A stretch of DNA of 64,000 nucleotides, from the NCBI GenBank assembly GCA_026004675.1, contig BPJP01000001.1:124001-188000 (forward strand), given 5' to 3'. The notes beneath the pieces are model-generated. The model saw only the letters and a list, made by a program, of their open reading frames with translations. It was not told the origin of the DNA and ran no database searches. This DNA is from Gemmatales bacterium. GTDB lineage: Bacteria > Planctomycetota > Planctomycetia > Gemmatales > Gemmataceae. This document shows positions 51,634 through 62,334 of this stretch, in pieces. The position numbers and the translations under genes were made by a program. Each line of letters begins with the position of its first letter. Position 1 is the stretch's first letter.

Positions 51634-52705
51634 CTCTGCCAGCCGATCGGCGACCAGCAGCCATCGAATCCTGTCCTATGTCGACGCAGTCCGCGAAGCC
51701 ACCGACCTCGAAATGGCTTGCGATCCTGCTGTCATCGTTTTTGGGCTCGATGTCGATGATCCGAAAGCGATCCAGGGAACGGTTCGCGGTTTGCTGGAAA
51801 AGTATGGTCCGGAGCGGGTGTTCGGCACGCCTCTTTCCGAAGATGCCATGACTGGTACCGCTGTCGGCATGGCGCTGGCTGGGCTGCGTCCCATCCATGT
51901 GCATATTCGCATGGATTTTCTGATGCTCGCGATGAACCAACTAGTCAACGTCGCTGCCAAGTGCCGCTACATGTACGGCGGACAAGTGCATGTTCCCCTC
52001 GTCGTGCGAGCCATGATCGGGAAGAGCTGGGGACAGGGGGCACAGCATTCTCAGGGCCTGCATAGCTTTTTCATGCACGTTCCCGGTTTGAAGGTCGTGG
52101 CTCCCTCCACGCCGTACGATGCCAAGGGCTGCCTCAGTGCCGCCGTGCGCGATGACGACCCCGTCATTTATGTCGAACATCGACTGCTGCACTTTCAATC
52201 CGGACCGGTTCCCCCCGAACGCTATCAGGTTTGGCCCGGCAAAGCTCGCATCACGGCCAAGGGAAACGACCTGACAATCGTTGGCATCTCTTATATGCAG
52301 ATCGAATGCCTTCGGGCGCAGCGCCTGCTGGCTCGAATCGGCATCCATGCCGAAGTTATCGATCCCATCTGGCTGAGCCCGCTCGACATCGACACGATCG
52401 CTGCTTCGGTCGAAAAGACAGGACGGCTTCTCGTCGTTGATAACGGCTGGACGAATTGCGGTGCCGCCGCCGAGATCGTGGCTCAGATCGGTGAAAAACT
52501 GGCTCCCCTTCGCGATCTGCGTCTGAAACGGATGGGCTTCGCTCCGGTCACCTGCCCGACGACACCCGCATTGGAAGAATTGTTTTATCCCAATGCCCGC
52601 ACCATTGCCGCCCAAGCACGCAACCTCGTTGAAGGTGCCGAAACCGGCTGGCTTCCTGAAATTCCGGAAGAATTGCAAACAACCGCTTTCAAAGGACCGT
52701 TCTAA
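51614..52705 (+). CDS. Thiamine-diphosphate E1 enzyme, beta subunit (transketolase-like)
   Basis: 363 residues from ATG 51614, directly behind AAGGAGGAAGCCC inside the end of the alpha gene. The transketolase pyrimidine-binding domain (about 15-190; FGTPLSEDAMTGTAVGMALAG with the Glu that activates thiamine, then FMHVPGLKVVAPSTPYDAKG) is followed by the C-terminal domain (about 220-340; LTIVGISYMQIECLRA, GRLLVVDNGWTNCGAAAEIV). The stop and the next start overlap as TAATG. Together with the alpha subunit it forms a complete alpha2beta2 decarboxylating enzyme without E2/E3, so it should release or transfer the activated aldehyde to an unusual acceptor. Confidence 0.88.
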   Translation: MPQPVLDSASRSATSSHRILSYVDAVREATDLEMACDPAVIVFGLDVDDPKAIQGTVRGLLEKYGPERVFGTPLSEDAMTGTAVGMALAGLRPIHVHIRMDFLMLAMNQLVNVAAKCRYMYGGQVHVPLVVRAMIGKSWGQGAQHSQGLHSFFMHVPGLKVVAPSTPYDAKGCLSAAVRDDDPVIYVEHRLLHFQSGPVPPERYQVWPGKARITAKGNDLTIVGISYMQIECLRAQRLLARIGIHAEVIDPIWLSPLDIDTIAASVEKTGRLLVVDNGWTNCGAAAEIVAQIGEKLAPLRDLRLKRMGFAPVTCPTTPALEELFYPNARTIAAQARNLVEGAETGWLPEIPEELQTTAFKGPF

Positions 52706-55551
52706 TGCACCGAGCAACCACGACCGCCGGCCTGGATTGGCCGCTGATGCAGAATAATCTTTCACGCGACGATCTCGACGCCGTTTGCCAATTCCTGAAA
52801 CAAGACGATCCCGTTCTCACTCAGGGAGCGAACGTCCGCGCTTTTGAAGAGGAATGGTCTGCGTGGCTCGGCGTTCGACATAGCGTGCTGGTCAATTCCG
52901 GCTCGTCCGCCAACCTGTTGACGATCGCTGCGTTGAAAGAACTCTACGGTTCAGGGGGCGAGATCATCGTTCCTCCGTTGACATGGGTTTCGGACATCGC
53001 CGCTGTCTTGCATTGCGGTTTCGAGCCGGTTTTTGTCGACATCGATCGCCGAACGTTGGGGATGGACAATCAGCGAATCCTGGAGAAAATCACGTCACGA
53101 ACCCGGGCCGTCTTTCTGACGCATGTCCTGGGCTATAATGCACTGAGCCAGGAACTGCTCGACGCTTTACAAGCCCGCGGCATCATCCTGCTCGAAGACG
53201 TGTGCGAGGCACACGGGGCGACCTTCGCCGGTAGCAAGCTCGGGACCTTCGGCCTCGCCGCCAACTTCTCGTTCTACTACGCCCATCATCTCACCACCAT
53301 CGAAGGGGGCATGATTTCGACCAACGACACGCAGTTTTATGAAACGTTGCGCATGCTTCGCGGCCACGGTCTGGTTCGCGAACTGGATTCCCCCTCTTAT
53401 CGCCGGTCGTTTGCCGACGACTATCCCGATTTGAACCCGGAATTCATCTTCGCTTTTCCCGCCTACAACGTCCGCAGCACAGAGATCAACGCGATTCTCG
53501 GCCGGCAACAACTCAAACGACTCGATGAGAATATCCGCCGCCGGAATGAAAACCTTCGGGTTTTCCTGCAAAATCTCGATCCCGAGACGTATCAAACCGA
53601 CTTTGACACGCGCGGTTGCAGCAACTATGCCTTTACGCTCGTCCTGAAGAATCCGGACCACGCTTTGTGCGATCGAGTCATGGCCGTTTTACGAGAGCAT
53701 GGGGTGGAATATCGCCGCGGGTTGTCCGGCGGAGGCAACCAACTCCGGCAACCTTACTTGCGCCGGCGATTCGGCAACGACGCCTGGCGCGAATTTCCGC
53801 GCACGGACCATGTGCACTTTTTCGGCTTCTACATCGGCAACTTCCCATCGTTGCCGCACGACAAAATTCTCCAGCTGTGCCGCCTGTTGAATGACCTGAC
53901 AAAACGCCGGCAGAAGCCTTCAAGTCGACAAAGGGAAAGCGATAACCGCATCCAACCACCTCAGCAACACACGAGCCGGCGCCGGCGACATGAGGTCGAT
54001 CTCGTTTTGATCAATCCGAACAGCCGACGGCAAGTGTATCAGTCATTGGGAAACGATCTGGCCGCTGTGGAAAATCCAGTCTGGGCCGGTTTAATGGCAA
54101 CGTTTTGCCGGCGGCGCGGCTTGTCGGTGGCGATTCTCGATGCCGAAGCGGAGCAATGGTCCGCGGAAACGGTAGCGGAAATCGTGCGTGATCTCAATCC
54201 GGTCCTCGCAGCCGTGGTCGTCTATGGCCACCAGCCCTCCGCCTCGACACAAAACATGACGGGTGCCGGTCGGGTATGTACGGCCATCAAGAAACTGACC
54301 CCTGAACAACCCACACTACTCCTTGGCGGACACGTCGCTGCCTTGCCGGCGCAAACACTCGAAGAAGAATCTGCCGATTTTGTCGCCGCCGGCGAAGGAC
54401 TTGACACTTTGGTTTCCCTTGTCGAAGCCCTCAAGGCAAAGGAGCGGGACATTTCCAAAGTTCCCGGACTGTATTACCGGATGGCAGGCCGAATCGAACG
54501 AACGGTCGATCGGCCTTTGTTACGGAATCTCGATGAAGAAATGCCTGGCATTGCTTGGGACTTGCTGCCGATGCCGAAATACCGCGCCCACAACTGGCAT
54601 TGTCTGCAGGAAACGAGCAGACAACCCTATGCGGCCTTGTACACGACGCTTGGTTGCCCCTTTCGGTGTTCCTTTTGCTGTATCCAGGCTCCTTTCAAGA
54701 GCGGCGAACGGGCAGCGGGCTTGCATCCCTCGGCCAACAGCTATCGCTTCTGGAGCCCGCGACGAATTCTCGACGAAATCGATTTATTGGTGCAAAAGTT
54801 CGGCGTTCGACATATCAAAATCGCCGATGAAATGTTTGTCCTCAACCAGCGGCACGTCCAGGCTATTTGCGACGGCCTCATCGAACGCGATTACGGCTTG
54901 AATCTGTGGGCGTACACCCGCGTGGATACGATCAAAAACGGCTTGCTCGAAAAGCTGAAGGCCGCTGGTTTCAACTGGCTCGCCGTCGGCATCGAAGCAG
55001 GAGCCGCACGCGTCCGGGACAACGTCGACAAGAGTTTCGATCAGGAGGAGGTCTTTCGCACCATTGCCGATATCCGCGCTGCCGGCATCAACATCATCGG
55101 CAACTATATCTTCGGCTTGCCTGAAGACGACGCCGACACCATGCAGGCAACACTCGACTTAGCCATCGAATTGAATTGCGAGTTTGCCAATTTCTATTCG
55201 GCCATGGCCTATCCGGGTTCGCCTCTCTACGAAATGGCGAAACGAGCCGGGGTTCCCCTGCCGGCACAATGGACCGGCTACTCCCAGCATTCCCGCGACT
55301 GTCTCCCTTTGCCGACTCGTCATTTGCCGGCAAGGGAGGTTTTGCGCTTCCGCGACCAGGCTTTCCTCGCCTACTACACCAACGACCGCTACCTCGACAT
55401 GATCGCGCGACGGTTTGGTCCCGCTGCCGTCGCGCAAATCCGAAGCATGACTTCCCACCGTCTCGAACGCGATTTGTTGTCGGGAAAACTCAACGTGCCT
55501 GACGTTCTTTTCCCCAGACAGGTGTCCGATCCGGTCCTGGTCGGAGGCTGA
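52705..55551 (+). CDS. Fusion: ColD/AscC-like PLP sugar dehydrase plus B12-binding radical SAM protein
   Basis: 948 residues. Residues 1-400 are a DegT/DnrJ/EryC1 fold: PLTWVSDIAAVL, LLEDVCEAHGATFAGSKLGTFG, then SFYYAHHLTTIEGGMIS, where the PLP-binding Lys is replaced by His, the mark of 3-dehydrases such as ColD and AscC/RfbH. A basic linker (about 400-435) leads to a cobalamin-binding domain (DLVLINPNSRRQVYQSL, TLLLGGHVAALP) and a radical SAM core with TLGCPFRCSFCC (CxxxCxxC). The frame is open throughout with no internal start at the junction. Expected chemistry is 3-deoxygenation of a 4-keto sugar in the first half and a B12/SAM radical reaction, perhaps C-methylation, in the second. Confidence 0.85.
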   Translation: MHRATTTAGLDWPLMQNNLSRDDLDAVCQFLKQDDPVLTQGANVRAFEEEWSAWLGVRHSVLVNSGSSANLLTIAALKELYGSGGEIIVPPLTWVSDIAAVLHCGFEPVFVDIDRRTLGMDNQRILEKITSRTRAVFLTHVLGYNALSQELLDALQARGIILLEDVCEAHGATFAGSKLGTFGLAANFSFYYAHHLTTIEGGMISTNDTQFYETLRMLRGHGLVRELDSPSYRRSFADDYPDLNPEFIFAFPAYNVRSTEINAILGRQQLKRLDENIRRRNENLRVFLQNLDPETYQTDFDTRGCSNYAFTLVLKNPDHALCDRVMAVLREHGVEYRRGLSGGGNQLRQPYLRRRFGNDAWREFPRTDHVHFFGFYIGNFPSLPHDKILQLCRLLNDLTKRRQKPSSRQRESDNRIQPPQQHTSRRRRHEVDLVLINPNSRRQVYQSLGNDLAAVENPVWAGLMATFCRRRGLSVAILDAEAEQWSAETVAEIVRDLNPVLAAVVVYGHQPSASTQNMTGAGRVCTAIKKLTPEQPTLLLGGHVAALPAQTLEEESADFVAAGEGLDTLVSLVEALKAKERDISKVPGLYYRMAGRIERTVDRPLLRNLDEEMPGIAWDLLPMPKYRAHNWHCLQETSRQPYAALYTTLGCPFRCSFCCIQAPFKSGERAAGLHPSANSYRFWSPRRILDEIDLLVQKFGVRHIKIADEMFVLNQRHVQAICDGLIERDYGLNLWAYTRVDTIKNGLLEKLKAAGFNWLAVGIEAGAARVRDNVDKSFDQEEVFRTIADIRAAGINIIGNYIFGLPEDDADTMQATLDLAIELNCEFANFYSAMAYPGSPLYEMAKRAGVPLPAQWTGYSQHSRDCLPLPTRHLPAREVLRFRDQAFLAYYTNDRYLDMIARRFGPAAVAQIRSMTSHRLERDLLSGKLNVPDVLFPRQVSDPVLVGG

Positions 55552-57309: not shown

Positions 57310-58641
57310 GTGTCACTCGATATTCCTCGCGAAGAGCTTACTGTCCACCGAGAACGTGCCTTTCTCGTGGGCGTGACATTGGCGGGACGGCCACAGGTTC
57401 AGGAACCTCTTGCCGAATTACGTGGTTTGACCACCGCGGCAGGGGCAGTCGTCGTCGGCACGATGCACCAGCACCGCGTCGATATCAACCCCGCCACCTA
57501 CATCGGCAAAGGCAAGCTGGCTGAACTGCAACAGCAGGTCAAATGCCTCGACGCCGACGTCATCATCTTCGACAACGATCTTTCACCTGCCCAAGTTCGC
57601 AATCTGGAAAAAGCCACGAATGTCAAGGTCATCGATCGCAGCGAATTGATCCTGGATATTTTCGCGACCCGCGCGCGCTCGGTCGAAGCCCGCTTGCAAG
57701 TGGAGTTGGCGCAGTTGGAGTATTCTCTCCCCCGATTGCGGAAGATGTGGACGCACTTGTCCCGCTATCGCGGCGGAATCGGCTTGCGTGGCCCAGGCGA
57801 AACGCAGCTGGAAGAAGACCGGCGGCTCGTGGGCCAGCGCATCCGTGACTTGCGTAATCGGCTTTCCGAGGTCCAAGCACGCAAAGCGCGCGAGGTGAAC
57901 AGCCGATTCGAGGAACATACGGTCTCACTGGTCGGCTATACCAACGCCGGCAAAAGCACATTGATGAATGCCTTGACCGGCGCCGGCGTTCGGGCCGAGG
58001 ACCAGCTGTTTTCGACGCTTGATACTCGAACCCGGCAATGGCACCTGAAAGACTGGGGCAAAGTCCTGCTCAGCGACACGGTCGGCTTTATTCGCGATCT
58101 GCCTCATCACCTGGTTGCCTCGTTCCGCGCCACGTTGGAAGAGACGCGTCAAGCCCGGTTGCTGCTGCACGTCGTCGATGCCAGCAATCCCGCCGCTGAA
58201 GAGCATATCCGCGCCGTCAACCGCGTGCTGGAGGAACTGGGCTGCGACGAAAAACGGTGCATCCTGGTCCTCAACAAGATCGACCAGTTGCCCGACCGCT
58301 CTTATCTAGATGTCCTGCAGAACCATCATCCTCGGGCCGTCGCTGTCAGTGCAGCCAACAAGGTCGGACTGGACCAATTACGGGCCACTGTCATCGAGGA
58401 ACTAAGTGCCGATTTTGCCGAGGCGGAAGTCGAAACCAGTTCCGGCAACGGTCGGCTCCTCGCTTACCTCGCTGCCCATGCCGATATCCATCACCGACTC
58501 TACGACGACCAGCGCGTCCGAATTCGCTGCTCGCTTCCCAGGCATCTGCTTCACCATATCCAGGGACCGGATGTCGACGTCCGTTTCCTGGACGGCGACG
58601 GCTGTGTCCGTGGCGAACACACAGATGTATCAAAGCGCTGA
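57310..58641 (+). CDS. hflX: GTPase HflX
   Basis: Ribosome-associated GTPase that rescues or splits stalled ribosomes under stress. 443 residues from GTG 57310; AGGAGGG lies 14 bases upstream, a long spacing, but no better start is seen. The HflX N-domain (AFLVGVTLAGRPQVQEPL, TYIGKGKLAEL) is followed by the helical linker with RGGIGLRGPGETQLEEDRR, which binds the ribosome, and the G domain: GYTNAGKSTLMNAL, DTVGFIRDLPHHLVASF, LNKID and VSAANKVGL. A C-terminal domain of about 85 residues follows. Length is normal. Confidence 0.95.
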   Translation: MSLDIPREELTVHRERAFLVGVTLAGRPQVQEPLAELRGLTTAAGAVVVGTMHQHRVDINPATYIGKGKLAELQQQVKCLDADVIIFDNDLSPAQVRNLEKATNVKVIDRSELILDIFATRARSVEARLQVELAQLEYSLPRLRKMWTHLSRYRGGIGLRGPGETQLEEDRRLVGQRIRDLRNRLSEVQARKAREVNSRFEEHTVSLVGYTNAGKSTLMNALTGAGVRAEDQLFSTLDTRTRQWHLKDWGKVLLSDTVGFIRDLPHHLVASFRATLEETRQARLLLHVVDASNPAAEEHIRAVNRVLEELGCDEKRCILVLNKIDQLPDRSYLDVLQNHHPRAVAVSAANKVGLDQLRATVIEELSADFAEAEVETSSGNGRLLAYLAAHADIHHRLYDDQRVRIRCSLPRHLLHHIQGPDVDVRFLDGDGCVRGEHTDVSKR

Positions 58642-58690
58642 TACGACACCACCAATCTCGCGCCAGCAGCCGTCACCTTCGTAATTCGTC

Positions 58691-58722
58691 TTGACCCTGT
58701 AGTACACTCCAGGGCTTATCAT
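58691..58722 (+). promoter_or_regulatory. MerR-type promoter/operator of the selenoprotein operon
   Basis: A -35 box TTGACC (58691-58696) and a -10 box TATCAT (58717-58722) are separated by 20 bases, the overlong spacer that MerR proteins correct by DNA distortion. The spacer holds an inverted repeat, CCCTGTAGT (58695-58703), two bases, ACTCCAGGG (58706-58714), matching in 8 of 9 positions. It closely resembles CadR/PbrR/MerR operators. The MerR start codon is 30 bases further on in the same direction, so the regulator and the genes behind it are probably on one autoregulated transcript. Confidence 0.8.
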
Positions 58723-58751
58723 CAAGAGAGGCACAAGAGGGGACAAGACAA

Positions 58752-59153
58752 ATGGGGACCATGACTATTGGCCAGGTTGCCCGGCGAACGGGCGTCGGCA
58801 TCGAAGCGATTCGCTTTTATGAACGCCAGGGCGTTTTGGAAAAACCCCAACGCAGTGCCTCGGGTTATCGGCTTTACGATGCCAGCGTTATCGATCGTTT
58901 GCGGTTTATTGGCCGAGCCAAAGAACTCGGCTTTACTCTCAGAGAAATCAAGGAATTGTTGGAATTGCGGGTCGGTCCAGCGACGAGCTGTTCTGATGCA
59001 AAGGCGCTGGCTGAAAAGAAAATTGCTGACATCGAAGGCAAAATTCAAACCTTGCAAAGCATGAAGAAAGCCCTGGTCAAGCTGACGCGACAGTGCCAGG
59101 GGCGAGGGCAGATTTCCTCATGCCCCATCCTCGAAGCATTGGACGATCGGCCC
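58752..59153 (+). CDS. merR: MerR-family regulator, mercury-type, reading straight into the next gene
   Basis: About 134 residues. The N-terminal winged helix is MTIGQVARRTGVGIEAIRFYERQGVLEKP, then SGYRLYD and IGRAKELGFTLREIKELLEL, and a dimer helix. Metal ligands C80 (ATSCSD), C115 (RQCQ) and C124 (SSCPIL) have spacings of 35 and 9, identical to C82/C117/C126 of Tn501 MerR, and the CPI/LI ending also fits, so Hg(II) is the likeliest inducer; Pb/Cd regulators differ in the last spacing. The frame has no stop: it continues without a break into the DUF1559 protein, which I annotate separately from GTG 59154. A missing stop through a one-base error or a true fusion are both possible. ATG 58752 or 58761 is the start. 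Confidence 0.85.
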
Positions 59154-60143
59154 GTGTCCCGAAAAGCCTTTACCCTGATCGAACTGCTGGTCGTGATCGC
59201 GATCATTGCGGTTTTGATCGGCCTGTTGCTGCCCGCGATTCAAAAAGTACGTGAAGCCGCCAACCGCGTGCGCTGTGCCAATCATCTCAAACAGATGGGG
59301 GTGGCATTGCACAGTTATCATGATGCCATGGGCGTTTTTCCACCCGGCGTGGTTGATAATGATGCCAATCTCCGCGACGGATTGCATAGCGGCTTCGTTT
59401 TTCTGCTTCCATACGTCGAACAGCAGGCGCTTTACGACCGCTACGATTTCAGCGCGTCCTGGAAATCGCCGGTGAATCTGGCGGTCGCCCAGGCAAAGGT
59501 TGCCATTTTTCAATGTCCGAGTGCTCCAGGCATGCCAGCGGAGGCAGGCGGAATTTCGGGGGCCATGACCGACTACGCCTTTTGCAAAGGGGCCGATGCT
59601 TTTCTCTGCAACTCCCCTTCGATCCGCCCAGGATCGGGCCTGTTCGATGTCAACAGTTCCCGGCGGATCAATGACATCCACGACGGCACAAGCCACAGTT
59701 TCGCCATGGGAGAGGCGGTCAGCGGTGCTTCGATTCCGGCACGCGATACGTGAGGCTGACCTGGAATGCAGATGGGCCAGGTCTGGTCCAAGGCGGATTT
59801 TGCCGGGCGAACGATGCTTGGATTTGCCGGTGGTCGGGGGAGCGTCCTCGCCGTCACAACGCAAAATGCCGGCCCGGACGGTATGCTGGGGACTCTCGAT
59901 GACGTTCTTGCGCCCCTCAATCCCTTTTCGCAAGGTGTCCAGGTATCCGTTGATATGAGCTTGGACGATTCCTGCGCGAATCCGAATGACCGCATCCGCG
60001 AATTCGCCAGCATGCATCCAGGAGGCGCCAACTTCCTGATGGCGGACGGCTCGATTCGCTTTATTGCCCAGTCGATTCCCTTTCAGGTCTACCAGGCGTT
60101 GTCCACTATTCAAGGAAGTGAATCGGTTGCCGACGGCTACTGA
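59154..60143 (+). CDS. DUF1559 pseudopilin-like protein, candidate selenoprotein with two in-frame TGA codons
   Basis: 329 residues if TGA 59751-59753 and TGA 59757-59759 are read as selenocysteine (positions 200 and 202, U-G-U). The N-terminus is a pilin-type leader and helix, SRKAFTLIELLVVIAIIAV, followed by IGLLLPAIQKVREAANRVRC, the DUF1559 signature. After the TGA pair the same frame continues PGMQMGQVWSKADFAG and ends with the family motif HPGGANFLMADGSIRFI, so both sides belong to one protein. A hairpin with a GGTC apical loop lies 20 bases after the second TGA. If TGA acts as stop, the product would lack its C-terminal third. The GTG start has no clear Shine-Dalgarno, and translation may be coupled to merR. 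The prepilin peptidase at 9.8 kb could process it. Confidence 0.7.
59773..59790 (+). promoter_or_regulatory. Candidate bacterial SECIS element in the DUF1559 gene
   Basis: Seven-base-pair stem, T73-A79 with T84-A90 of the 59,7xx numbering (one G-T pair), closed by the four-base loop GGTC at 59780-59783. Twenty bases separate the second TGA from the loop. Bacterial SECIS elements are known as small stem-loops about 16-37 nt past the UGA with a G at the start of the apical loop, bound by SelB; this hairpin meets each of those conditions. Confidence 0.65.
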
Positions 60144-60191
60144 CCTTCGCAAACAATGGATCGCTTCATTCACGGCGAAAGGATTTCAAGA

Positions 60192-60893
60192 ATGAAAAAT
60201 CTGATTTGTCTTTTCACCTTAGCGGGAACGCTCGGCATCGCCGGTTGCGGTTCGTCGGATTCGACCACGCCCCAATCTCCCCATTGGACCGAGGTGGTGC
60301 TTCAGATCAAAGGCTTCAAGAAGAGCAAAAGTGGAGCCGTCTGAATGGCGTGACCGAATGCGGTCAAACAAGCTCTGGTAGAGCTTGACGCAGTAAAAGA
60401 CGTGGAAATGCATCTGAAAAACGATCGGTTTATCGTCACATACGATGCCGGAAAAGCATCGCCTGCCGACCTCGTTGCCGTGATCGAGGAGGCAGGCTAC
60501 GAAGCAGCTATTGTTGCTGAGAGCCGTGATCCAGACGGTTCGAACACCGATGGACAAGCGCGGCGGGACGCCGTTTTTGTTGAGGCCTTGGCCCGGGCCA
60601 AGAAAGAAAACAAGCCGATCGTTTTGGACTTCTATGCTAGCTGGTGCGTCCCATGCATGAAGATGTCCAAGGAAACCTTTACGGATGCTGCCGTAGCGGC
60701 TTTGCTCGAGCAATGCGTTTTCGTGAAGATAGATACGGATAAGCACACGGAATTGGCGAAAAGCTTCGGCGTCGAGGGGCTTCCGGATATTCGCTTTCTG
60801 ACGCCGGACGGCCGAGAAGTGAAGAGACTTCAAGATTATCAAGACGCGGATTCCTTGGCGCGCGAGTTAAAGAAACTCGTCGGCGGCAAATGA
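60192..60893 (+). CDS. HMA (MerP-like)-thioredoxin lipoprotein, candidate selenoprotein with UxxU metal site
   Basis: 233 residues from ATG 60192 (AAAGGA upstream) if two in-frame TGA codons, 60342-60344 and 60351-60353, are selenocysteine (U51, U54). Residues 1-19 form a lipoprotein signal, LAGTLGIAGC. Residues about 30-105 are a heavy-metal-associated domain: TEVVLQIKGF, then U-M-A-U-PNAVKQALVEL, DVEMHLKNDRFIVTYD and AVIEEAGYEA. MerP has CAACP at this place, so both TGA codons fall exactly on the metal-binding cysteines. Residues about 120-233 are a DsbD-gamma-like thioredoxin with WCVPC (C152, C155) and cis-Pro in GLPD. A GG-loop hairpin follows the second TGA by 23 bases. Read as stops, the TGA codons would leave a useless 50-residue fragment. 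Confidence 0.8.
60369..60387 (+). promoter_or_regulatory. Candidate bacterial SECIS element in the HMA-thioredoxin gene
   Basis: Perfect eight-base-pair stem CAAGCTCT (60369-60376) with AGAGCTTG (60380-60387) and the loop GGT (60377-60379); if the top T-A pair is open the loop is TGGTA. Twenty-three bases lie between the second TGA and the loop. Position, stem and loop guanines agree with bacterial SECIS elements. A second, smaller hairpin (GACCG/CGGTC) lies directly at the second TGA. Confidence 0.7.
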
Positions 60894-60987
60894 GCATCGG
60901 CCAGCGACAAGAGGATTTCGACCCAGTCGAACCCGCCTGCTCACAGGAGCAATGGGGCTATCTTGGACGCCGAAATCGCCCTCTCGT

Positions 60988-62334
60988 TCACAGTTGCGCG
61001 ATGCACGCATGGACTGTGTGGCAGAGCCGATCGAGAAGTGCCAGATCGATCGCCAACGGAGGCATCAGGACGATGACGTCGCCTAGCGGGCGAATGAACA
61101 CACCTTGTTCCATCGCCAGCCGACAGACGCGAACACCGACGCGATCAGACGCAGCGAACGGTTGTTTGCTGCTTTTGTCCGCTACCAGTTCGATGCCCGC
61201 AATCAGACCGCACTGCCGAATGTCTCCGACGTGAGGCAATTGGGCCATTCGCTGCAAATGTTCGCGAAAACGGTCGATCTTCGCGGGCAACCGTTCGAGC
61301 ACTTTCGGTAACAAGTCGAGATTGGCCAGGGCGACGGCAGCACCCAGGGGGTTTCCTGTGTAGGTGTGGCCATGGTAAAAGGTTTTTCCCTCTTCGGGCC
61401 TCCCCAGAAACGCTGAATAGACCTCGTCCGTAGTCAAGGTGGCGGCCAAAGGCAGGTAACCGCCAGTAAGCCCCTTGGCCAGACAAAGGAAATCGGGTTG
61501 GACCTCTTCCTGCTGACAGGCGAACATCGTTCCGGTTCGGCCGAAGCCCACCGCCACTTCGTCAGCGATCAAGAGGACATCACATTGCCGGGTTACTTCG
61601 CGAACGCGGCGTAAATAGCCTTCGGGCGCCCGGATCATGCCGGCCGCTCCTTGCACTAGCGGTTCGACGACGACCGCCGCCAGTTCATCCGCGTGCTTGC
61701 GAACCATCTGCTCGAGTTCGGCAACGCATTCCACGCGGCAGGAAGCTGGCTCGAGACCAAATGGACAGCGATAGCAGTAGGGTTGCGGCGCACGGATCGT
61801 TTCAAACAGCAAAGAGCGGAAAGGGCGATTGAACAGTTCCGGATCACCGACGGCTACGGCGCCAAGAGTGTCGCCGTGATAAGCACCTCTCAAAGCGAGG
61901 AATTTCCGTTTTCCTGGCTTTGGTCGGCGCGACTGTTGCCAGTATTGCACGGCCATCTTCAGTGCCGCTTCGACGGCCGTGGCGCCGTCATCGGAAAAAA
62001 ACACTCGTGTCAAACCGGCCGGAGCCAGTTCCACCAGACGTCGCGCCAAACGAATGGCCGGTACGTTCCCCAGACCCAACAGCGTGCTATGGGCGACCTT
62101 GTCCAACTGCTCACGAATCGCCGAATCCAATGCCTCGACACGATGACCATGAACATTGCACCATAAGGACGAGACACCGTCGAGATATTTCCTGCCATCC
62201 TGGTCAACGAGAAAGCAGCCATGGGCCTTTTCGATGATAATCGGCCGGTTGTCGGCATAGACCTGCATCGGTGTGAAAGGATGCCATAAATGGTCACGAT
62301 CCCATCGTTCGAGTTCCTGGGGTGTGTCGTTCAT
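60988..62334 (-). CDS. bioA: Adenosylmethionine-8-amino-7-oxononanoate aminotransferase
   Basis: PLP enzyme of biotin synthesis that uses S-adenosylmethionine as amino donor. 448 residues. HLWHPFTPMQVY near the N-terminus and GVSSLWCNVHGHR are BioA-specific; the PLP phosphate loop is DDGATAVEAALKMA, the catalytic Asp is in LIADEVAVGFGRTG and the PLP Lys in CLAKGLTGGYLPLAATLTT. HTYTGNPLGAA follows. Its 3' end faces the HMA-thioredoxin gene, 95 bp away. No other bio gene is in the window. The M14 carboxypeptidase gene lies 13 bp upstream of its start on the same strand. Confidence 0.96.
   Translation of the reverse strand: MNDTPQELERWDRDHLWHPFTPMQVYADNRPIIIEKAHGCFLVDQDGRKYLDGVSSLWCNVHGHRVEALDSAIREQLDKVAHSTLLGLGNVPAIRLARRLVELAPAGLTRVFFSDDGATAVEAALKMAVQYWQQSRRPKPGKRKFLALRGAYHGDTLGAVAVGDPELFNRPFRSLLFETIRAPQPYCYRCPFGLEPASCRVECVAELEQMVRKHADELAAVVVEPLVQGAAGMIRAPEGYLRRVREVTRQCDVLLIADEVAVGFGRTGTMFACQQEEVQPDFLCLAKGLTGGYLPLAATLTTDEVYSAFLGRPEEGKTFYHGHTYTGNPLGAAVALANLDLLPKVLERLPAKIDRFREHLQRMAQLPHVGDIRQCGLIAGIELVADKSSKQPFAASDRVGVRVCRLAMEQGVFIRPLGDVIVLMPPLAIDLALLDRLCHTVHACIAQL

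Follow-up and report, generated by a model that had tools for sequence, protein, structure and literature searches.

A reading frame of the window, by which we mean the whole 64-kb stretch of DNA analysed here, encodes a metal-binding domain and a thioredoxin domain, and it is crossed by two TGA codons. How are these codons read, and what would the resulting protein do? In known selenoproteins, selenocysteine (Sec) is mostly held to serve redox chemistry, whereas in the predicted protein both ligands of a classical metal-binding fold would be Sec. Loci from more than one phylum keep the UGA pair, and no Cys version was found among the sequences compared, which makes the gene a clean case for asking whether biology binds mercury or copper by selenium. 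It also raises the question of how two UGA codons so near each other can be decoded with a single SECIS. Very probably, the product is an HMA-thioredoxin lipoprotein with two Sec residues, and most likely it would be a binder of soft metal (Hg or Cu) which carries its own reductase domain.

Reading frame, protein domains and selenocysteine machinery

The gene is composed of the following parts:

60192–60893, + strand: HMA-thioredoxin lipoprotein gene with two in-frame TGAs (open reading frame and Pfam)
60192–60248, + strand: putative lipoprotein signal peptide, lipobox L-G-I-A-G-C19 (read by eye)
60288–60515, + strand: HMA domain with U-M-A-U-P (Pfam PF00403, predicted structure and likeness to MerP 1osd)
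60342–60344, + strand: TGA, predicted first Sec codon, U51 (invariant, 24 of 24 aligned loci)
60351–60353, + strand: TGA, predicted second Sec codon, U54 (invariant, 24 of 24 aligned loci)
60579–60887, + strand: DsbD-gamma-like thioredoxin domain (Pfam and structure comparison)

From M1 at 60192 to the closing stop, a TGA at 60891–60893, the frame encodes 233 residues and is interrupted solely by the TGAs at 60342–60344 and 60351–60353. When these are read as residues, the Pfam HMA match (E 7e-10, residues 47–104) spans both of them, and Pfam Thioredoxin follows at residues 137–227 (E 4.1e-17), with the active site C-V-P-C at 60645–60656. A preliminary description of this DNA had proposed a lipoprotein signal, an HMA domain and a thioredoxin domain in a frame broken by two TGAs only, both falling on the cysteine sites of the HMA motif; the frame and the Pfam domains agree with this, as does the signal read by eye, and both TGAs lie on the cysteine sites, within the extent of the HMA match.

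An AlphaFold model, built from an alignment of 24 sequences with Sec replaced by Cys, reached a mean pLDDT of 88.9, with block means of 93–98 in the HMA part. In Foldseek comparisons of this model, the HMA part was superposed on MerP (1osd) with a TM-score of 0.93 by target length and an rmsd of 1.2, and the thioredoxin part on the gamma domain of DsbD (1vrs, 2fwe). Ordinary HMA domains carry the metal motif GMTCxxCP, whereas the U-x-x-U of this protein family is preceded by an extra stretch (GFKKSKSGAVUMAUP). We infer that Sec is inserted at both codons and that the protein is anchored as a lipoprotein.

The genome (6.03 Mb, 37 contigs, 91% complete) encodes SelA (588 bits, cut-off 268), SelB (384 bits, cut-off 242) and SelD (370 bits, cut-off 125), together with a tRNA-Sec of anticodon UCA (72.6 bits, ARAGORN), so that the selA, selB, selC and selD genes which the preliminary description had proposed to look for are accounted for. 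Eight of 14 tRNA-Sec matches were checked; apart from this tRNA-Sec they proved to be tRNAs for Leu, Ser and Gly and a single tRNA-Sec-shaped tRNA whose anticodon, GCA, is that of Cys. The latter lies at L010:1501–1594 (G000:C12) and scores 54.8 bits to RF01852; tRNA-Cys of the selC* type is listed for other phyla in an excerpt of PMC7609411. The SelD gene (L025, G000:C6:132474–133400) contains one in-frame TGA of its own.

At E 0.001 the genome holds only two matches to PF00403, namely the HMA-thioredoxin gene and L168, and both are double-TGA genes. The latter (L168:1390–1719, G000:C9) is a second HMA lipoprotein with two in-frame TGAs, reading GMS-U-RYS-U-TG, and scores 58.2 bits to NF041115 against a cut-off of 95.

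Conservation of the UGA pair and its RNA hairpin

Both TGAs are invariant in all 24 aligned loci (the window and 23 others), which are mostly from Planctomycetota and Acidobacteria and whose DNA stretches align without a gap. Among 392 genomes of the phylum, 16 matched at E 1e-22 or better when seven candidates per genome were scored among the matches listed, giving 17 rows; TGAs lie inside 14 of these, the window included (two TGAs in 13 rows, four in one). The three rows without TGA were dropped, one because the site is gone (G414, the same as L145) and two because only the thioredoxin part matched (G395 and G203). Read through, the 13 non-window loci of the phylum have a common site, typically KSKSGAT-U-M-A-U-P. 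A further genome scan contributed ten more loci with the TGA pair, taken from the best 12 of 80 matches (L170–L181); the remaining 68, at E 3e-19 or weaker and mostly covering the thioredoxin half, stand outside the count. The ten are an unclassified bacterium (L170), Planctomycetota (L171, L172, L175 and L179, one of them a Pirellulaceae bacterium) and Acidobacteria, Pyrinomonadaceae and Blastocatellia (L173, L174, L176, L177 and L178). Left out of the 24 were L180, which begins after the site at a contig end, and L181, a planctomycetotal sequence identical to part of L155, itself from the phylum of the window; a planctomycete source is therefore likely for the window. Within the same family (95 genomes), the TGA pair occurred in the window's gene alone, and the other rows fell in residues 101–232.

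Upstream of the TGA pair, a comparison of 15 codons across 11 loci gives 242 synonymous and 52 nonsynonymous single-difference codons, which indicates that the upstream part is coding and in the same frame; over the 20 codons after the pair, the counts are 202 and 172.

Gene callers cut genes at UGAs, and for this reason the family is easy to miss. Among 85 protein database matches to the HMA-thioredoxin protein, the window's own fragment included, 83 records begin after the UGA pair; the matches start at query residues 55–80 in 82 cases, at 94 in one and at 52 in one (P0016). The sole full-length record, P0003, has W-M-G-W-P at the site, as a code with UGA as Trp would write it. No Cys form of the fusion was present among the 85 matches or the fetched loci, and the interchange of TGA and TGC that the preliminary description had suggested looking for in homologues did not appear there. 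A Cys homologue aligned with the UGA is a criterion for bacterial selenoproteins; here the Cys match consists of HMA domains in general. The HMA part alone, used as a query, returned one match, the window's own fragment, but this search is weak as a way of finding a Cys form, since only 22 candidates were scored and P0003 was missed as well. Plasmid records gave 105 matches, none covering 80% of the query, and the 20 listed correspond to the thioredoxin half; viral contigs gave 80 retained loci with an identity of at most 40% over parts of the query.

The family also shows variation at and around the site. G414 (L145) has lost the UxxU stretch but retains the thioredoxin and the latter half of the HMA domain, so that not every relative depends on the site. 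The thioredoxin motif carries a TGA in L149 (G255; U-V-A-C) and reads W-A-P-C in P0003, and the partner domain may thus sometimes be a Sec form too. L159 (G146) has a second HMA domain in the HMA-thioredoxin frame, with GMT-U-PDG-U-GTP (U-x-x-x-U). L179 (3090–4292) and L180 both extend further at the C-terminus, and there each has another TGA, in LSPT-U-GPC.

Two RNA hairpins follow the TGA pair:

60352–60365, + strand: first hairpin, GACCG/CGGTC, beginning inside the second TGA (fold and covariation)
60369–60387, + strand: putative bSECIS hairpin with an 8-bp stem and a GGU loop at 60377–60379 (fold, covariation and published criteria)

The 8-bp hairpin with a GGT loop reported earlier at 23 nt after the second TGA is present, and its loop lies 32 nt after the first TGA. 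The fold of 60351–60395 has an energy of -18.7 kcal/mol (z -4.1). In the bSECIS model, as set out in a section of a 2026 review (PMC13188914), the apical loop measures 3–9 nt and the upper stem 4–16 bp, a G occupies one of the two opening loop positions, with G or U next in most cases, the distance from UGA to loop is 16–37 nt and the minimum free energy is -7.5 kcal/mol or lower. By this part of the model, the hairpin at 60369–60387 lies within the limits (3-nt loop, 8-bp stem, early G, -18.7 kcal/mol), and the distances of 32 and 23 nt fall inside the range for both UGAs.

In the alignment of 24 loci, the helices occupy columns 11–15/20–24 and 28–35/39–46, and the loop columns 36–38 read GGA in 17 loci, GUA in four, GGU in two and GUC in one. 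Pairing is retained in 93.3% of 312 cells, with 31 cells changed on both sides. The number of paired cells, the number of two-sided cells and the covariation score were each reached by none of 500 shuffles, and the number of further pair types by three; two-sided change affects six of the 13 pairs, a count reached by 43 of 500 shuffles. Partners that were slid along the alignment paired at only 27–54%, and RNAalifold, unprompted, returned a nearly identical structure. Because the hairpin stretch is coding, 2000 synonymous recodings of each sequence were also made for comparison: helix 1 is paired at 0.933 against a recoded mean of 0.689, and helix 2 at 0.932 against 0.648, values reached in none of the 2000 recodings. 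At gathering thresholds no Rfam family was found in the 64-kb window, and the SECIS call therefore rests on the fold, the covariation and the published model. One SECIS would decode both UGAs, which may fix the spacing of the UxxU motif.

These observations bear directly on how the TGAs are read. If they were plain stops, the gene would be broken or would restart downstream at GTG 60402, and the many database records that begin after the pair would fit such a view. It is nevertheless scarcely credible, given the TGAs kept in every aligned locus, the purifying selection upstream of them, a co-varying hairpin which codon use does not explain and the Sec machinery of the genome; on the grounds of conservation, codon constraint and hairpin we rejected a plain stop as well as a pseudogene or a restart at that GTG. 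Reading of TGA as Trp or Cys through a changed code or a suppressor is likewise very improbable. P0003 is translated with Trp and the genome has the tRNA-Sec-shaped tRNA with a Cys anticodon, but a GCA anticodon would read UGC and UGU rather than UGA, and the tRNA-Sec found has UCA. Furthermore, the gene and its relatives carry the bSECIS-type hairpin, and five of the seven neighbouring frames checked, the HMA-thioredoxin gene among them, end in TGA. The double-Sec reading of the preliminary description is thus strongly supported, because the Sec machinery, the TGAs in 24 of 24 loci, the co-varying bSECIS and the coding constraint upstream all argue for it.

The upstream MerR-DUF1559 frame and the metal context

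A second frame with paired TGAs precedes the gene:

58691–58722, + strand: MerR-type promoter/operator-like site, TTGACC, 20 nt, TATCAT (sequence script)
58752–60143, + strand: MerR (residues 1–131), type IV pilin-like N_methyl and DUF1559 in one frame (Pfam)
59751–59759, + strand: TGA GGC TGA (U-G-U) in the DUF1559 part (sequence)
59773–59790, + strand: bSECIS-like hairpin with a GGUC loop at 59780–59783 (fold)

For the frame at 58752–60143 to stay open, TGA 59751 and TGA 59757 must both be read through (T-U-G-U-P), and its DUF1559 domain is matched in full (1–267 of 268). The best NCBIfam match of the MerR part is TIGR02051, at 131.1 bits and below the cut-off of 150.85. The metal ligands of Hg-type MerR, which we take to be three cysteines in the C82/C117/C126 pattern, have a counterpart in the translation, where a cysteine triad of this type (TSC..RQC..SSCP) was recognised by eye. 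The 20-nt spacer of the operator-like site holds an inverted repeat, CCCTGTAGTA/CACTCCAGGG, and the same script found no other such site in the 64 kb; a general promoter scan with spacers of 16–18 nt returned none in 58600–61000.

The MerR-DUF1559 frame is likely a second double selenoprotein, with U-G-U. Its GGUC loop lies 26 and 20 nt after TGAs 59751 and 59757, with fold energies of -12.0 and -12.2 kcal/mol, and the hairpin is within the bSECIS limits of the model excerpted from PMC13188914, although with z-scores of -2.2 and -0.3 it is weak by shuffling; the longer stretch 59751–59805 has a different best fold (z -1.2). Of 119 other DUF1559 homologues listed (the window's own P0087 left out), 39 are truncated, and 33 of these stop at the residue just before the first TGA; two full-length homologues, P0088 and P0091, have Cys aligned with that TGA. 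In DNA searches for this subfamily, the window's own gene alone was above threshold, both in 95 genomes of the family (22 candidates scored in most) and in 397 genomes of the class (eight scored in those listed). DUF1559 is absent from Table 1 of the 2026 review (PMC13188914).

A relative of MerR lies near the gene in seven of the 24 loci (the window, L153, L154, L155, L157, L164 and L179), with identities of 32–64%, the highest in L179; a partial MerR match in L159, more than 8 kb away, was left out of this count. The other 17 loci have no MerR relative near the gene, several of their flanks being short. At five of the seven MerR loci an operator-like site with a 20-nt spacer is found: it precedes merR in the window, L155, L157 and L179, and in L154 it is on the strand of the divergent MerT and HMA-thioredoxin genes. 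A CopZ-MerT-HMA gene stands between the MerR and HMA-thioredoxin genes in L154 and L155, and in G414 (L145) the HMA/thioredoxin part is fused behind CopZ-, MerT- and HMA-type domains. In L163 a MerT-HMA gene adjoins the relative, scoring 32.1 bits to Pfam MerT, just under the cut-off of 32.9.

Other neighbours are a CsoR-type repressor (L162), a P-type ATPase (L173) and, by eye, the hydrolase part of an apparent one (L177), RND pumps (L159 and L170), an Acr3-like pump (L158) and an ArsR-like gene (L157). These regulators and transporters indicate that the setting is often one of soft-metal handling, of mercury type at several loci, with copper also fitting. No MerA exceeded its cut-off in the genome, which is 91% complete (best score 336.6 against 454.45), and inspection by eye of the frames flanking the gene in the window showed no MerT. 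The proposal of mercury as the metal is supported by this context, through the Hg-type MerR upstream and the MerR and MerT neighbours or fusions in relatives, and the neighbours of relatives would suit copper or other metals as well.

Further TGA-containing frames were observed in these surroundings. L163:4906–6098 (G095) has, beside the relative, a glutaredoxin-like frame with U-A-S-C and the MerT-HMA gene with G-M-T-U-P-Q-S-C, and in L156 the neighbour is a glutaredoxin-like frame with a TGA. Frames neighbouring the gene in L160 and L165 have in common SGAET-U-U-ASTR, with two consecutive TGAs. Within the window, 52705–55551 is a single frame of 948 residues, which by eye resembles a DegT-type aminotransferase joined at its end to a B12-binding radical SAM protein.

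Proposed function and relation to known systems

We consider it probable that the gene encodes a lipid-anchored periplasmic HMA-thioredoxin in which the two Sec residues bind a soft metal, Hg(II) or Cu(I), and the thioredoxin domain keeps them reduced. The operator function, the metal binding, the identity of the metal and the reductase role that we infer would combine as follows. Soft metal would turn on the MerR-type promoter and the operon would be expressed; a single hairpin would serve both UGAs, which SelB and tRNA-Sec would read, and the protein would be exported and then lipid-anchored at the membrane. Selenolates are more acidic and softer than thiolates, and two of them could take Hg(II) or Cu(I) in the manner of MerP. 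Should the pair oxidise to a diselenide or a mixed product, the fused CVPC domain would reverse this and leave the site free to bind. The same module is fused to MerT in G414 and stands beside MerT in three loci, which suggests a transfer of metal between the module and a transporter, in one direction or the other.

A different role would be that of a redox centre, in which U-x-x-U cycles between diselenide and diselenol and exchanges electrons with the fused thioredoxin, for example in the reduction of a periplasmic oxidant. The partner domain, a DsbD-gamma-like thioredoxin with C-V-P-C, would suit this, as would the TGA or W in the thioredoxin motif of L149 and P0003, and a passage of the 2026 review (PMC13188914) considers most uncharacterised prokaryotic selenoproteins likely to be redox proteins. 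However, the sites are the metal ligands of the HMA fold and several of the neighbouring genes encode metal regulators or transporters, and we regard the redox role as unlikely. On a broader scale, the binding of soft metal by the paired Sec may be part of a selenium mer system in Planctomycetota and Acidobacteria. This would consist of MerR-controlled operons encoding periplasmic metal-handling proteins with paired Sec (the UxxU HMA-thioredoxin, a Sec MerT-HMA, a Sec glutaredoxin and the U-G-U DUF1559 fused to MerR), in which selenium would be a metal ligand rather than catalytic, the Sec pair would have no known Cys counterpart, one SECIS would serve two UGAs and every detected HMA domain of the genome would be a double selenoprotein; we hold so wide a proposal to be about as likely as not.

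Several known families resemble parts of the protein. Table 1 of the 2026 review (PMC13188914) includes NF041115, "Metal-binding protein (putative mercuric reductase)", with UxxU and two Sec, as well as MerT-type and ATPase selenoproteins; the HMA-thioredoxin fusion is absent from it. NF041115 (UxxU_metal_bind, "metal-binding (seleno)protein") has an HMA-type domain, U-x-x-U and two Sec in common with the window protein, but the latter differs from this 74-position model in its longer loop before UxxU, its lipoprotein signal and its fused thioredoxin. Against the cut-off of 95 bits, the window protein scores 40.4 and its relatives 34.6 (P0003), 38.1 (L139), 44.4 (L179) and 53.2 (L176); L159, with its second HMA domain, reaches 80.2. 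The U-x-x-U of an HMA domain is thus already catalogued in NF041115, and the HMA-thioredoxin lipoprotein form is a new variant. No Sec fusion of HMA and thioredoxin is named in the titles or abstract openings listed by literature searches. The preliminary description had surmised that selenium forms of mercury-transport proteins might stand in metagenome surveys, and the GOS survey (PMC2398784) does list, in the portion available, a Sec MerP and a "putative mercuric transport protein" among selenoprotein forms of Mer transport proteins; its entries there are given without an HMA-thioredoxin fusion.

MerP (TIGR02052; 1osd) has the HMA fold in common with the window protein (TM 0.93 by target length), but the match is 38.7 bits against a cut-off of 92.55, and the window protein has UxxU for CxxC and a fused thioredoxin. 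The thioredoxin fold and CxxC site are shared with the DsbD gamma domain (1vrs, 2fwe), whereas the window protein has none of the other DsbD domains and is fused to HMA (NF001419, 70.1 bits against 330). NF045683, a MerT/CopZ fusion-like heavy metal transport selenoprotein, is similar in its use of Sec in mercury-type transport; the window protein is without the MerT part and scores 24.7 bits, and the Sec MerT-HMA gene beside the relative in L163 scores 66.1 bits, against a cut-off of 375.
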